Positions 120 to 12,254 of a DNA stretch of 20,791 nt are shown piece by piece. The notes under the pieces are model-generated. The model saw only the letters and a list, made by a program, of their open reading frames with translations. It searched no databases and had not been told where the DNA came from. This DNA is from a virus. Position 1 is the first letter of the stretch, and every line of letters begins with the position of its first letter. Made by a program: the position numbers and the translations under genes. Location: positions 1 through 20,791 of IMG/VR virus record IMGVR_UViG_3300032331_003215. The stretch is one strand, 5' to 3'.

Positions 120-301
120 GCCCGGTCTACGTTTGGCGCTGCGCAACTTGCGGCGAGATAGAAGAGCGGCACCAAACCGGCTTTGATCCGATCACGCCGC
201 GCTGCCTGAAGTGCGGACCGTTCATGCAGCGGGTCATAACAGCACCCGGGATCGTTCTCAAAGGGGACGGCTGGGCAACGAAGGAAGGGAAGGGGGAATG
301 A
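116..301 (+). CDS. FmdB-like zinc-ribbon protein
   Basis: A 61-residue protein with two CxxC knuckles (CATC near residue 10 and CLKC near residue 31) that would hold one zinc ion. The order knuckle, spacer, second knuckle, then a hydrophobic patch and a C-terminal G-D-G-W element resembles the FmdB/zinc-ribbon-8 family of small putative regulatory proteins that are frequent in phages. I chose the ATG at 116 over the in-frame ATG at 110 because GAGG at 105-108 is correctly spaced for 116 and because 116 gives an ATGA overlap with the upstream stop. The true role is unknown; the family name is by resemblance only. Its stop overlaps the start of the methyltransferase gene. Confidence 0.7.
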   Translation: MSPVYVWRCATCGEIEERHQTGFDPITPRCLKCGPFMQRVITAPGIVLKGDGWATKEGKGE

Positions 302-1548
302 GGCACGCATCGTTCTTCAGCGGAGTCGGCGGTCTTGACCTCGGCTTTGAACGCGCTGGCATTCACACGGTGAGCGTCAGCGAGATCGATCCATACGCCA
401 ACAGCGTATTGGCAGAGCGATTCCCAGACGCTCCGAATCTGGGCGACATCGTAAAACTTGCAGAGAAAGAGTTGGTAAATAAAGATGACGGAAGAAACTT
501 GGCTGATAAGAACGACAGGGGACTTTCACGATCCAACACTTCAGATAGAGAAGGACGGACTTCCGATGTTGGCGGCAAACCCAATGTCGGATCGGCAAAT
601 GGTGGTGGCGCAGATTGGCGAACCGCAGACATTTGGTCAGGTGGATTCCCCTGCCAAGACCTCAGCGTCGCAGGCAAGCGCGCAGGATTCGCAGGCAAGC
701 GCAGCAGCCTCGCCTTCACCTTCCTCGACCTTGTGGAGCAGCACCGACCTAGGTGGCTCGTGCTGGAGAATGTCCCTGGACTCTTCAGTTCCAACAAGGG
801 GGCTGACTTCGGACGGCTTCTCTATGAAATGGAGCAACTCGGGTATGGCGTTTCGTGGCGAACTCTGGACGCTCGCTACTTCGGAGTCGCCCAGCGACGC
901 CGTAGAGTGTTCCTTGTCGGCAGTCTTGAATCCGACCGCGCCGGTGAGGTTCTCCTTGAGTGCGAGGGCTGCGAGCGGCATCCTTCGCCGCGCTGGACGC
1001 AGAGGCAAGGTGTTGCCAGCGGCTCTCCAGACGGCTCTGGAATCGCTCGCACAGTCCGCGCCAGCCTCGCCAAGCGAGGCGAAAGAGGAGACGGTAGCGA
1101 TGACCTCATCGTCAGTCAGGCGCCTGACTCCGACAGAGTGCGAGCGGCTGATGGGCTGGACCGACGGCTGGACAATCAGCAAGGCGTGGCGCGCAAATCG
1201 TCGTTCGGACACTACGAGATCACTGAAGACGCAGGAACTCTCAAGTCATCAGGCGGCGACATCGGGGGGGGGTCGGAGAACTTGATTCTTTCGTTCCCAT
1301 CCCGGTTTGGCAGCAATGCCAATGTGACCGAGAGCCAAGCGCAGTCAATGGCACACAGCGCTGGAGCGCCGGCAGTGCTCCTCGACAGCGTAGGTGGCAC
1401 AACCGACGAGGATGATCTGCTCCCAGTCGGTCTGGACTCACACCGCTACCGCTGCTGCGGGAATGGAGTGGTCGCTCCAGTTGCCGAATGGATCGGCAGA
1501 AGAATCGTAGAAGCAGACCGCCGCTGGCGAGAAGGAGAGGGCGAATGA
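298..1548 (+). CDS. C5-cytosine DNA methyltransferase (Dcm-like)
   Basis: A 416-residue SAM-dependent enzyme predicted to methylate carbon 5 of cytosine in DNA. Motif I (FFSGVGGLDLGF) is at residues 5-16, an acidic SEID follows, the catalytic PCQ motif has Cys119, ENVPG (motif VI) begins at Glu157, QRRRRVFLV (motif VIII) is near residue 200, and a GNGVVAPVAEWIG motif X is near residue 388. The ATG at 298 follows a purine-rich ribosome site and overlaps the previous stop. Two oddities: roughly 50 low-complexity residues are inserted before PCQ, and motif IX (the RLTPxE..RL-G element) is missing from this frame but present in the overlapping frame (485-1285). The target site cannot be read. It may protect phage DNA from host restriction. 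Whether it is active without an in-frame motif IX is uncertain. Confidence 0.85.
   Translation: MRHASFFSGVGGLDLGFERAGIHTVSVSEIDPYANSVLAERFPDAPNLGDIVKLAEKELVNKDDGRNLADKNDRGLSRSNTSDREGRTSDVGGKPNVGSANGGGADWRTADIWSGGFPCQDLSVAGKRAGFAGKRSSLAFTFLDLVEQHRPRWLVLENVPGLFSSNKGADFGRLLYEMEQLGYGVSWRTLDARYFGVAQRRRRVFLVGSLESDRAGEVLLECEGCERHPSPRWTQRQGVASGSPDGSGIARTVRASLAKRGERGDGSDDLIVSQAPDSDRVRAADGLDRRLDNQQGVARKSSFGHYEITEDAGTLKSSGGDIGGGSENLILSFPSRFGSNANVTESQAQSMAHSAGAPAVLLDSVGGTTDEDDLLPVGLDSHRYRCCGNGVVAPVAEWIGRRIVEADRRWREGEGE
485..1285 (+). CDS. Out-of-frame overlapping phage gene inside the methyltransferase gene
   Basis: This 266-residue frame lies wholly inside the methyltransferase gene in a different forward frame, yet reads like a protein in its own right. 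It has a non-repetitive N-terminus, a DSPAKTSAS block read from the same bases as the PCQ motif, a W-rich middle, a serine-rich ECSLSAVL segment, then FSLSARAASGILRRAGRRGKVLP followed by LQTALESL. That last block is one I recognise from memory in phage proteins usually labelled methylase-associated. Near its end (residues 212-230) it carries RRLTPTECERLMGW, the motif IX of cytosine-5 methyltransferases. ATG at 485 is the natural start, with only a weak ribosome site upstream. Function is unknown. It could be an independent protein or could contribute motif IX to the enzyme by frameshifting. Confidence 0.6.
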   Translation: MTEETWLIRTTGDFHDPTLQIEKDGLPMLAANPMSDRQMVVAQIGEPQTFGQVDSPAKTSASQASAQDSQASAAASPSPSSTLWSSTDLGGSCWRMSLDSSVPTRGLTSDGFSMKWSNSGMAFRGELWTLATSESPSDAVECSLSAVLNPTAPVRFSLSARAASGILRRAGRRGKVLPAALQTALESLAQSAPASPSEAKEETVAMTSSSVRRLTPTECERLMGWTDGWTISKAWRANRRSDTTRSLKTQELSSHQAATSGGGRRT

Positions 1549-3051: not shown

Positions 3052-3083
3052 TCAACTATCAACCAAAGCGAATAGGGGGAACC

Positions 3084-3788
3084 ATGAGTAAGGAAATCGC
3101 ACAGGCGCTCGCGGCGCCATTTGATCCGAAGGATCTCAAGCAGCGCCCAGGGCGCGCCGGGATGACTTTCACCTACGCAGACGCGCGAGCGGTTGCGCAG
3201 CGGCTCGACGACGCGCTCGGCGTCACCGGGTGGCAATTTGAAGTCGCGGTCGCGGACGTTCCGCGGTCGGTCGTCAAGGGGAGCCTGACGCTGGTCATCG
3301 AGGGAAAGACAACGATCCGGGAAGACTTCGGATATCCGAACAGTGGGGCAGACGAGGAGCCGCTCAAGAGCGCCGCCTCAGACGCCCTGCGCCGCTGCGC
3401 CGCCCAAATCGGGGTCGGACGCAGCCTCTACAGCCCCGAGCAGGGGCAGGGTGGGGTGAAGACGCCACTAGTGGGGGGAACGCCCCGCTCCGTGGCTCCT
3501 ACACCCCTCTCCGACGATTCCAGCGGGGGGGATCAGGCGATCGTTCGGGCGGCAATGGCGTTCGCCCAGGGGGACGCGGCGGGAGCCGGGAACTGTCCCG
3601 CACACGGGACCCCGTTCATTCTCCGCCCAGGCGGGGTATCAAAGACGACCGGGAAGCCCTACGCAGAGTTCTACGCCTGCCCAACAAAAGACGCGGCGGG
3701 TTTCTGCAAGGCGCGCCCAGCGGCGCCGCGCCCAAAGCCGGCACCGGCTCGACAGCCAGAAGAGACGCTGGAAGAATTACCGTTCTAA
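3084..3788 (+). CDS. Rad52/Rad22-family single-strand annealing protein with C-terminal zinc motif
   Basis: A 234-residue protein. Residues 1-120 resemble the Rad52/Rad22 single-strand annealing family: an FDPKDLKQRPGRAG start, FTYADARAVAQRLDDALG, a VTGWQFEV strand, GSLTLVI, and then the signature LKSAASDALRRCAAQIGVG. These proteins coat single-stranded DNA made by the phage exonuclease and anneal it to homologous DNA. A low-complexity linker leads to a C-terminal cysteine/histidine module with NCPAHGTPF, then FYACP and FCKARP, which resembles a zinc ribbon and could help bind DNA. The ATG at 3084 has an AGGGGGA ribosome site; the in-frame codon at 3045 has none. The exonuclease is two genes upstream. 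Confidence 0.85.
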   Translation: MSKEIAQALAAPFDPKDLKQRPGRAGMTFTYADARAVAQRLDDALGVTGWQFEVAVADVPRSVVKGSLTLVIEGKTTIREDFGYPNSGADEEPLKSAASDALRRCAAQIGVGRSLYSPEQGQGGVKTPLVGGTPRSVAPTPLSDDSSGGDQAIVRAAMAFAQGDAAGAGNCPAHGTPFILRPGGVSKTTGKPYAEFYACPTKDAAGFCKARPAAPRPKPAPARQPEETLEELPF

Positions 3789-9601: not shown

Positions 9602-9723
9602 CAAACGGGGGGGCGGTCAAAATCATACGCACGAATAGTCGCCGGCTATCCAACGCCGAGCCCAGCGCACAGGCGGGGGGGTTTTTAGGTTTTGGTGTAA
9701 AATCCAAACAGGGGGGAAAATGA
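9598..9723 (+). CDS. Candidate 41-residue gene filling the gap before metK
   Basis: A GTG at 9598 overlaps the glycosyltransferase stop as GTGA, and this frame runs to TGA 9721-9723, which overlaps the metK start as ATGA. The 41-residue product (NGGAVKIIRTNSRRLSN, ending AGGFLGFGVKSK) is basic with a glycine/phenylalanine-rich tail. Overlaps on both sides are the standard arrangement here, which supports it. Against it: the GAAGGA just before the GTG is too close to be a good ribosome site, and the stretch is AT-richer than its neighbours and might instead be regulatory. Confidence 0.4.
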   Translation: MTNGGAVKIIRTNSRRLSNAEPSAQAGGFLGFGVKSKQGGK

Positions 9724-10835
9724 GCAGGAAGACACTGACCTCGGAATCCGTAACGGGCGGACACCCGGACAAACTCTGCGACCAAATCAGCGACGGCATC
9801 CTTGACCGGTTGCTGGCTGAAGACCCGAACGCACGCGTTGCGGTTGAAGCCGCAGCGAAAGACAACACGGTCTGGGTCTTCGGGGAAGTCGGAAGCGCCG
9901 CCGAGCCGCACGCCGAAGCGGTCGTGCGTGACGTCTTCCGGCGCAACGGGTACACAGACCCGGATAGCGGAACAACGGCAGACACGGTGGAAGTCCGAAC
10001 GACGATCAGCCGCCAAAGCCCAGACATCGCTCAAGGCGTCGACAACGCAGACCCGCTCGGAGCAGGGGCTGGCGATCAGGGGCTCATGATTGGATACGCA
10101 ACGAAGGAAGCGCTTGGGTACATGCCGCTGCCGCTTTACCTTTCCAGGCAACTCACAAACGCGCTGACGCGCGAACGGGAGACCGGGCGGCTGCCGTGGT
10201 TGCGACCGGACGGGAAGGCACAAGTCAGCGTCCGATACGAAGACGGAGAGCCCGAGGAAATTACCGCGGTTGTCATCTCGGCGCAACACGCCTCGGACAT
10301 TGGCATTGACGAAGTCCGCGCAGCGCTTTCAGAAATTGCCAACAGCGTGCTGCCGAACTATTACCTCACCAATGAAACAGCCTTCCACTTCAATCCGACA
10401 GGGCGGTTCGTCATTGGCGGACCGGCTGCTGACTCGGGGCTGACCGGGAGAAAGATCATCGTGGACACCTACGGCGGCGCAGCGCGCCACGGCGGTGGAG
10501 CCTTCAGCGGAAAAGACCCGAGTAAAGTTGACCGCACTGGGGCATACGCCGCGCGCTGGCTTGCGAAAAGCATCGTCGCATCGGGACACGCAAAGCGCGC
10601 GGAAGTGGAACTTGCCTACGCGATCGGAGTGGCAGACCCCGTGGCGGTTAACGTCGACACGTTCGGAGAGGGAGACGACCGCGCGCTTGCCGCGCATTTT
10701 GACGACACCATTGACCTGCGCCCTGGCGCAATCATTGAGCGGCTAGGATTAAAGCGAGTCAAGTACCAGCGATGCGCGCGCACCGGACACTTCGGAGACC
10801 CCGAACTGCCGTGGGAAGAGGCGCTCGAGATTTAG
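9720..10835 (+). CDS. metK: S-adenosylmethionine synthetase
   Basis: A complete 371-residue methionine adenosyltransferase that makes SAM from methionine and ATP. The family's three repeated domains are visible. GGHPDK is at residues 13-18 (His15, Asp17), GAGAGDQG holds Asp119, Lys166 lies in DGKAQV, DSGLTGRK carries Asp238, Arg244 and Lys245, and FSGKDPSKVDR gives Lys265, Lys269 and Asp271. It is slightly shorter than typical bacterial enzymes (about 380-400). ACAGGGGGGAAA before the ATG is a strong ribosome site. In a phage it would raise the SAM supply, probably for the DNA methyltransferases at 298-1548 and 10845-12254. Nothing suggests decay. Confidence 0.95.
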   Translation: MSRKTLTSESVTGGHPDKLCDQISDGILDRLLAEDPNARVAVEAAAKDNTVWVFGEVGSAAEPHAEAVVRDVFRRNGYTDPDSGTTADTVEVRTTISRQSPDIAQGVDNADPLGAGAGDQGLMIGYATKEALGYMPLPLYLSRQLTNALTRERETGRLPWLRPDGKAQVSVRYEDGEPEEITAVVISAQHASDIGIDEVRAALSEIANSVLPNYYLTNETAFHFNPTGRFVIGGPAADSGLTGRKIIVDTYGGAARHGGGAFSGKDPSKVDRTGAYAARWLAKSIVASGHAKRAEVELAYAIGVADPVAVNVDTFGEGDDRALAAHFDDTIDLRPGAIIERLGLKRVKYQRCARTGHFGDPELPWEEALEI

Positions 10836-10844
10836 GGGGACACG

Positions 10845-12254
10845 ATGGCAAAGACAGAATGGCGCAATAGGATTACGAAAAGCGCGGAAGTCGCACCAGA
10901 GACGATCCTGCCAAACCCAGAGAATTACAGGGAACACCCGGACAGGCAACAGCGGCTCATGAGCGGGGCGCTCAACGAACTCGGATGGGTGCAGCCGGTG
11001 ATTGTTAACAGCCGAAGCGGAAGACTTATTGACGGACACATGCGCGTTGCGCTCGCGATCAGGCGCGCAGAGAAGACTGTGCCGGTGAACTACGTTGACC
11101 TCAGCGAAGAGGAAGAGCGCGTCGCGCTTGCAACGATTGATCCGCTGGGCGAACTTGCGCGCCAAAACGACAACGACCTGCGCTCGCTGCTTGCGCAAGT
11201 TTCAGTCAAAGATCGGGACCTGAAAGACCTACTCAGCGAACTCGACAAAGACGCAGGCGGGGATCAAGACTCCAGCGAAGAGACGCGCGAGACGCTGATG
11301 GCAAAAAATCGCGTTGACGAACTGCGTGCAAAGTGGAAGGTGAAGGCGGGCGACGTTTGGCAGGCTGGAACGCACCGGATCGGTTGCCTTGACGCAACAA
11401 ACCCGAAAGCGGTCGCCAAACTGATGGGCGCAAAAAAGGCGCACCTGGTCTTCACAGACCCGCCATACGGCGTGGCATACCAGGCAAGCGGACATGAGGA
11501 AATCAAAAACGACGCGCTGACTGGGGACGCACTTGTGGACTTTCTCGTCAAGTCTTTCAAAAACATGGAAGCCCACTCTTACGATGACGCAGGCTTCTAC
11601 ATTTGGCACGCCACGAGCAGCCGCGACGAATTTACACACGCGCTCAAGCGCGCCGGACTGCTTGAAAAGCAGTACCTCATCTGGGCAAAGCCGCAGCCCA
11701 CGCTCGGACACGCGGACTACCAACAGGCACATGAACCGTGCTTCTACGCGAGTAAAGCGGGACACCAGCCGCGCTGGTTCGGCGGGCGAGACAAAAACAC
11801 GGTCTGGGTTATTGCGCAGGCAGACGCAGAAAGGGCAAGCGCAACACTCACCGGCGGATTGATGATCAGCGCCGGAGACCGCCGCCTCTGGCTCAGCGAC
11901 AAATCGCCAAAGGGGAAAAAACTGCGCACCTTCAGGATTGAGCCTGGCGAGCGCCTGGAACTCAATGAACCGGGGGACGAAAGCGACATTTGGATTGTCG
12001 GAAGGGATACGACAAAGCCCTACCACCCCACGCAAAAACCCGTTGAACTCGCAGCGCGGGCGATCCGCAACTCCACGGAGCCAGGCGACATTGTGGTCGA
12101 CCTTTTCCTCGGGAGCGGTTCCACCGCGGTTGCTGCAGAGCGCACAGGGCGAACTTGCTACGGGACAGACTACGACGCAGGGTACGTCGCAGTTATTCTC
12201 GAGCGCCTAAGCGAAGAGGGGCTGAAGCCTGAGCGCATCAACGAGAGCGCGTAG
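10845..12254 (+). CDS. ParB-like domain fused to DNA methyltransferase
   Basis: A 469-residue two-part protein. Residues about 15-105 are a ParB/Srx-like domain (PNPENYREHPDRQ, GWVQPVIVN, LIDGHMRVALAI). Residues about 165-460 are a DNA amino-methyltransferase with TDPPYGVAY (Asp205-Pro-Pro-Tyr208), then HPTQKPVELAARAI and the SAM-binding VVDLFLGSGSTAV near residue 415. DPPY before the SAM motif is the beta-class order. It should methylate adenine N6 or cytosine N4. Such fusions are common in phages and may protect against restriction or regulate packaging. It follows metK by nine bases, so SAM supply and use are adjacent. The target sequence is unknown. Confidence 0.9.
   Translation: MAKTEWRNRITKSAEVAPETILPNPENYREHPDRQQRLMSGALNELGWVQPVIVNSRSGRLIDGHMRVALAIRRAEKTVPVNYVDLSEEEERVALATIDPLGELARQNDNDLRSLLAQVSVKDRDLKDLLSELDKDAGGDQDSSEETRETLMAKNRVDELRAKWKVKAGDVWQAGTHRIGCLDATNPKAVAKLMGAKKAHLVFTDPPYGVAYQASGHEEIKNDALTGDALVDFLVKSFKNMEAHSYDDAGFYIWHATSSRDEFTHALKRAGLLEKQYLIWAKPQPTLGHADYQQAHEPCFYASKAGHQPRWFGGRDKNTVWVIAQADAERASATLTGGLMISAGDRRLWLSDKSPKGKKLRTFRIEPGERLELNEPGDESDIWIVGRDTTKPYHPTQKPVELAARAIRNSTEPGDIVVDLFLGSGSTAVAAERTGRTCYGTDYDAGYVAVILERLSEEGLKPERINESA

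Follow-up and report, generated by a model that had tools for sequence, protein, structure and literature searches.

The window, a 20.8-kb IMG/VR virus record of 20,791 nucleotides, carries in its first part a C5 cytosine methyltransferase gene (298-1548, here called alpha), inside which a second frame, displaced by +1 and here called beta, is open over 801 bases (Table 1). Alpha matches PF00145 (E 7e-50) and TIGR00675 (E 7e-49) and contains motifs I, IV (PCQ), VI (ENV), VIII and X, as befits a member of the C5 methyltransferases; it does not, by itself, read as a complete single-chain enzyme, the motif IX regular expression being absent from the alpha frame and present only at +1, and the alpha-frame translation of 1078-1282, the stretch lying over motif IX, giving no methyltransferase profile match for this motif. 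Beta is composed of a conserved core (GELWTL...GILRRAGRRGK), followed by the motif IX that alpha lacks.

Table 1. Features of the methyltransferase locus in the window
Feature	Position	Strand	Basis
Alpha, C5 cytosine methyltransferase: motifs I-VIII, variable region, motif X	298..1548	+	PF00145, TIGR00675
Nested ORF (beta), +1 frame of alpha, 266 aa, open	485..1285	+	
Probable beta coding sequence from ATG 566 (alternatives ATG 584, ATG 599)	566..1285	+	Aligned start of relatives; upstream AAGGA
Shine-Dalgarno-like AAGGA, 10 nt before ATG 566	551..555	+	Sequence
Alpha motif IV, GGFPCQDLS; beta reads DSPAKTSA	640..666	+	Sequence
Alpha motif VI, ENVPGL	766..783	+	Sequence
Conserved nested core of beta, MKWSNSGM...GILRRAGRRGKVLPAALQTALE	824..1045	+	
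Alpha motif VIII, FGVAQRRRRVF; beta reads SESPSDAVECS	880..912	+	Sequence
Motif IX SVRRLTPTECERLMGWTDGWT, beta frame, about aa 208-230	1112..1174	+	Regular expression, PF00145, TIGR00675
Alpha motif X RYRCCGNGVVAPVAEWI	1444..1494	+	Regular expression; PF00145 299-323

The profile matches of beta to PF00145 (positions 252-297, E 0.01) and TIGR00675 (positions 266-303, E 8e-4) are weak taken singly, as is that of the alpha C-terminus to the short motif at PF00145 299-323 (E 0.19); since, along PF00145, the part matched by beta adjoins that matched by the end of alpha, the two chains jointly fill one methyltransferase profile. The nested ORF also matches PHROG 16143 and PHROG 1008 (E 9e-5 and 7e-8); the former, labelled DNA methyltransferase, has a profile which matches the nested core alone and does not cover motif IX. 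AlphaFold, run on an input from which four rows of the phage collection had been left out, modelled beta confidently only over about 50 helical residues, the two to three helices that end the core; no solved structure resembling this part was found, and a search of BFVD returned a phage cytosine methyltransferase together with an 81-aa protein of mycobacteriophage Thibault.

The locus had been singled out, from the letters alone, as two open frames in the same DNA, and its ORF 485-1285 is indeed open at +1 to the methyltransferase; likewise, the bases of GFPCQDLS in motif IV yield SPAKTSAS, as had been described, and the block SARAASGILRRAGRRGKVLP lies over the alpha residues that follow motif VIII. 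As to the surroundings, the ATG of a YqaJ exonuclease gene (1545-2504) overlaps the alpha stop codon, and with a Rad52-family annealing protein (3081-3785) it forms a two-component recombination module downstream of the methyltransferase. Farther along, an S-adenosylmethionine synthetase with all three Pfam domains (9720-10835) is directly followed by an N6/N4 DNA methyltransferase whose N-terminus looks ParB-like (10845-12254), a source of methyl donor in a genome that encodes two methyltransferases being thus provided by the synthetase.

Conservation of the nested frame and its start

Taken by itself, the open frame is only mildly unusual: in synonymous shuffles of alpha the probability of finding no stop in the +1 frame over 485-1282 is 0.03, so that the caution of the original prediction about chance frames in GC-rich DNA was a fair one, whereas 5000 such shuffles never produced motif IX. 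A chance open frame is not strongly excluded from the window alone; it is rejected by conservation across relatives. Among 38 complete-type relatives sharing less than 90% identity (with a 75% cut the outcome is similar), pairwise differences at the four-fold sites of alpha amount to 0.35 inside the overlap vs 0.68 in both the preceding and the following flank (Mann-Whitney, 4e-13 and 6e-30); the nested frame contains 0 stops in 5651 codons, vs 159 +/- 9 in synonymous shuffles, and its identity is 0.533 vs a null of 0.246, while the stops of the +2 frame are at the null level (225 vs 247). In the clade of the window (11 loci), the four-fold differences of alpha go from 0.38 before the overlap to 0.215 in the core and 0.09 in motif IX, rising to 0.54 after it; the 1664 nested codons contain 0 stops (20.2 +/- 3.8 expected), the nested identity is 0.723 vs a null of 0.334, and the +2 frame equals its null. 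The conservation ends at the nested stop codon.

Because the first loci had been found via the nested frame, the test was rerun on loci found via alpha alone: the core is present in 79/79 of these, with 12 nested stops in 9781 codons (vs 274 +/- 12) and none at all in 71 of 77 loci, and in no locus of this sample is the +2 frame open; being biased towards the query alpha, the sample gives no share among all phage C5 methyltransferases. The phase of the variability points the same way. Past motif VIII, where alpha can vary freely, the codon positions reverse their usual order: over ACQGILRRAEKRGKK (GILRRA) the wobble base of alpha is the most conserved (0.44 bits) and its position 1 the least (1.56). 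Within motif VIII (QRRRR) the second arginine is encoded by CGC in 98 of 150 loci, vs about 18% of the upstream arginines.

It might be argued that some cause other than protein coding, such as RNA structure, codon bias or shared descent, constrains the bases, the open frame being a by-product; besides the P value of the window frame, the identity of the +2 frame, which is also above its null (0.435 vs 0.235), shows that some base-level similarity exists. However, stops are depleted at +1 only, in both samples, and at GILRRA the variability follows the phase of the nested frame, the end of which is also the end of the conservation; such an explanation is considered highly improbable. As judged from these substitution patterns, the overlap is real dual coding, with selection at the protein level in both frames, and the natural dual-coding pair originally proposed is borne out by suppressed synonymous rates, absence of stops, the phase switch of variability and conserved internal starts, against shuffle and within-gene controls.

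The start of the nested gene deserves a separate comment. The frame originally put at 485-1285 is conserved, as claimed, but its start at 485 is the less likely one: since the conserved N-terminus begins at 566-599, the true beta start probably lies there. A candidate start at the N-terminus of the core is available in 84 loci; of these, 60 have a Shine-Dalgarno-like tetramer at the right spacing (null 39 +/- 3.8, maximum 49) and 68 have ATG as the start codon (null 48 +/- 3.9, maximum 61). In seven members of the window clade GGAGGT precedes the nested ATG by 8 nt, and in many complete-type phages the nested ATG is preceded by AAGGAGTGG; the start signal of the window itself is weaker than those of its relatives owing to an insertion in alpha at this place.

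Distribution and architectures

In phages, a tblastn search with the nested protein hits methyltransferase genes in their +1 frame. Scanning IMG/VR with the nested-frame alignment gave 80 loci which, with six annotated phage loci and the window, make a set of 87; in all 87 the nested core lies at +1 within the N-terminal half of the methyltransferase. A scan of bacterial genomes added 80 loci from Pseudomonadota, Bacteroidota, Planctomycetota, Actinomycetota, Bacillota and others, with the core at +1 in 78 and a frameshifted alpha in the remaining two, so that in 165 of 167 loci combined the core is found at +1 inside a C5 methyltransferase gene. No free-standing homologue of the nested protein was seen in these searches, the core never being found apart from a C5 methyltransferase gene. 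Of the two outcomes named beforehand as counting against a second gene, the confinement of its homologues to such genes has come true, but constraint in the methyltransferase frame only has not, the constraint on the nested frame being strong.

The arrangement of the C-terminal motifs is more varied. In 42 of the 87 loci motifs IX and X are both in alpha and the nested ORF, of about 150-170 aa, is separate; in 25, alpha stops before motif IX, and IX and X belong to a separate downstream ORF (for example genes 113/114 of Mycobacterium phage Lucky2013, locus L003), so that, counting the nested ORF, the locus would encode three proteins; in the 11 loci of the window clade alpha retains X, and IX is carried by the nested ORF; in two, motif IX is fused to the nested ORF and alpha ends before it; seven were left unclassified. 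The window and its ten relatives (L008-L017), which share the layout with IX at +1 and X back in alpha, are a single branch in the maximum-likelihood tree of alpha (support 100/99). The nested ORF is also contained in the dmt gene of phage P1 (locus L005), itself a well-studied gene, where, at 1787-2275, it is unannotated, lies at +1 and ends in the conserved core, thus offering a convenient laboratory test case. In two other loci (L176 and L148) the alpha frame is broken between its N-terminal part and motif VIII; in the former, one open frame of 599 codons links the N-terminal part of alpha, the nested core and motifs IX-X.

A motif IX out of frame with motifs I-VIII and X could suggest a decayed methyltransferase, carrying two compensating frameshifts or sequencing errors. 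The decayed gene is nevertheless ruled out, its probability being practically nil, by the occurrence of the same partition, with both frames open, in ten more contigs, which come from separate metagenomes and share as little as 49% nested identity, motif IX being the most conserved part in these relatives. Programmed ribosomal frameshifting, fusing the N-terminal part of alpha to the nested frame into one methyltransferase chain, would agree with the observation that motif IX, and in locus L006 also motif X, continues the nested frame, and that the C-terminal part sits in other frames in other classes. It is regarded as quite improbable, given that the window would need two shifts, into +1 for motif IX and back to 0 for motif X, that conserved start and Shine-Dalgarno signals of its own belong to the nested frame, and that the conservation of this frame already covers motifs IV-VIII, ahead of any point at which a shift would be useful.

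A candidate two-subunit methyltransferase

M.EcoHK31I is a two-polypeptide C5 methyltransferase (YGGCCR), whose beta is read from another frame inside alpha; going by the title of a 1995 paper, two proteins are reportedly required. In this enzyme the larger subunit comprises motifs I-VIII and X together with the target recognition domain, motif IX alone being left to the smaller; in M.AquI, another split C5 methyltransferase, the small subunit has both IX and X (PMC3404938). The window follows the former, its large chain having I-VIII and X and its small chain IX only, and its beta, too, is encoded in another frame inside the alpha gene; the two-subunit layout itself is already known from M.EcoHK31I. 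Unlike that enzyme, the pair of the window is phage-borne. The beta of the window contains the GILRRA core, which is also present in phage enzymes whose alpha has retained motif IX. The likeness to M.AquI is limited to the sharing of motifs between two chains and to the 25 loci with IX-X in a separate downstream ORF, since in the window X stays in alpha and it is IX that is nested. A mycobacteriophage methylase gene likewise contains an out-of-frame protein, the ShiLan domain, which is an HNH endonuclease encoded by a mobile insertion (PMC11855218); an identity of this type was rejected, nothing being inserted in the window and both frames sharing conserved methyltransferase motifs.

Given that the motif partition equals that of M.EcoHK31I, the locus probably encodes a two-subunit C5 methyltransferase, with a beta subunit started inside the alpha gene and supplying motif IX in trans. 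In the mechanism proposed, alpha would supply motif X and the variable region besides the motifs for catalysis and for S-adenosylmethionine binding; ribosomes starting at the internal Shine-Dalgarno/ATG would make beta from the +1 frame, with its conserved core, predicted helical C-terminal part and motif IX; the two chains would associate, and motif IX of beta would complete in trans the small (target-recognition) domain, as described for M.EcoHK31I. Activity would then depend on beta, and the phage DNA would be methylated, presumably against restriction. The original prediction was right in seeing a second coding frame and missed that this frame holds the methyltransferase motif IX, by which its product is related to the enzyme; as the holder of the enzyme's own motif, this product is best read, in the window and its ten relatives, as a second subunit.

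The nested protein could, alternatively, be made and selected without being a subunit, its core having an independent task (regulator or anti-restriction, for instance) with motif IX travelling along, and alpha working without IX or being inactive. The persistence of the core in the 42 loci with IX in alpha and in the 25 with a separate IX-X ORF would fit this explanation, which is held to be unlikely in view of the absence of the core away from C5 methyltransferase genes, of the constraint on motif IX, the strongest within the window clade and on a motif missing from alpha, and of M.EcoHK31I, in which the same partition works as an enzyme. Within the two-subunit reading, the 42 loci imply that supplying motif IX cannot be the sole function of the nested protein; the simplest guess is that, where alpha already has IX, the core is a conserved partner or regulator of the enzyme. 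There is a reasonable, though not a strong, case that many phage and prophage C5 methyltransferases, even single-chain ones with all motifs such as P1 Dmt, are two-gene loci with a conserved nested partner, to which some lineages moved motif IX, giving rise to obligate two-subunit enzymes. The breadth of the arrangement in phages and prophages and the retention of the core in complete single-chain enzymes, including that of phage P1, are apparently new; in the openly accessible literature searched, nothing was found on a nested core in phage methyltransferases, on its breadth or on its presence in complete enzymes.

If translated, the nested frame would make these loci a widely conserved same-strand overlapping gene pair, distributed across the phages and prophages of many bacterial phyla, in which active site and partner sequence are locked base by base; this would provide a clean system for measuring the mutual constraint of overlapping genes. 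Very few phage methyltransferases of the nested type have been studied, though the arrangement is widespread, and enzymes whose genes were recoded, codon-optimised or cloned from a single frame may be missing a subunit that they need.

A second family and its annotation

The second PHROG family matched by the nested ORF, phrog_1008, is the +1 frame of another family of C5 methyltransferases (phrog_363), with members for example in Zavarzinella and Salmonella phage epsilon15; members of phrog_1008 that looked free-standing are in fact nested in these genes. In 80 loci of the epsilon15 type, found via alpha, motif IX is at +1 in 72 and motif X in alpha in 75, and the +1 frame has 22 stops vs 257 +/- 11. 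The likeness to the window consists in the nested motif IX and in the match of PHROG 1008 to the nested ORF of the window; the differences are that the methyltransferase belongs to another subfamily, that beta is longer, with repeated GWPTP-type segments, and that it has LNPxxSRWLMGFP where the window has RRLTPTECERLMGWP. A second family nesting motif IX is, apparently, also new. A Klebsiella aerogenes plasmid, considered as a candidate EaeI/EcoHK31I-like system, proved to be an epsilon15-type remnant with shifted frames.

The two PHROG families labelled DNA methyltransferase are thereby explained, their members being the alternative frame of methyltransferase genes. Gene callers pick one of the two frames and seldom both: only alpha is annotated in epsilon15, and only the nested frame in W5_chr3 (Mte8-like) and phiKX1. 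In loci L186 (1501-2430) and L185 (1870-2478) the annotated coding sequences, an Mte8-like protein and a hypothetical protein respectively, are the nested frame, and the methyltransferase frame that shares these bases has no annotation.
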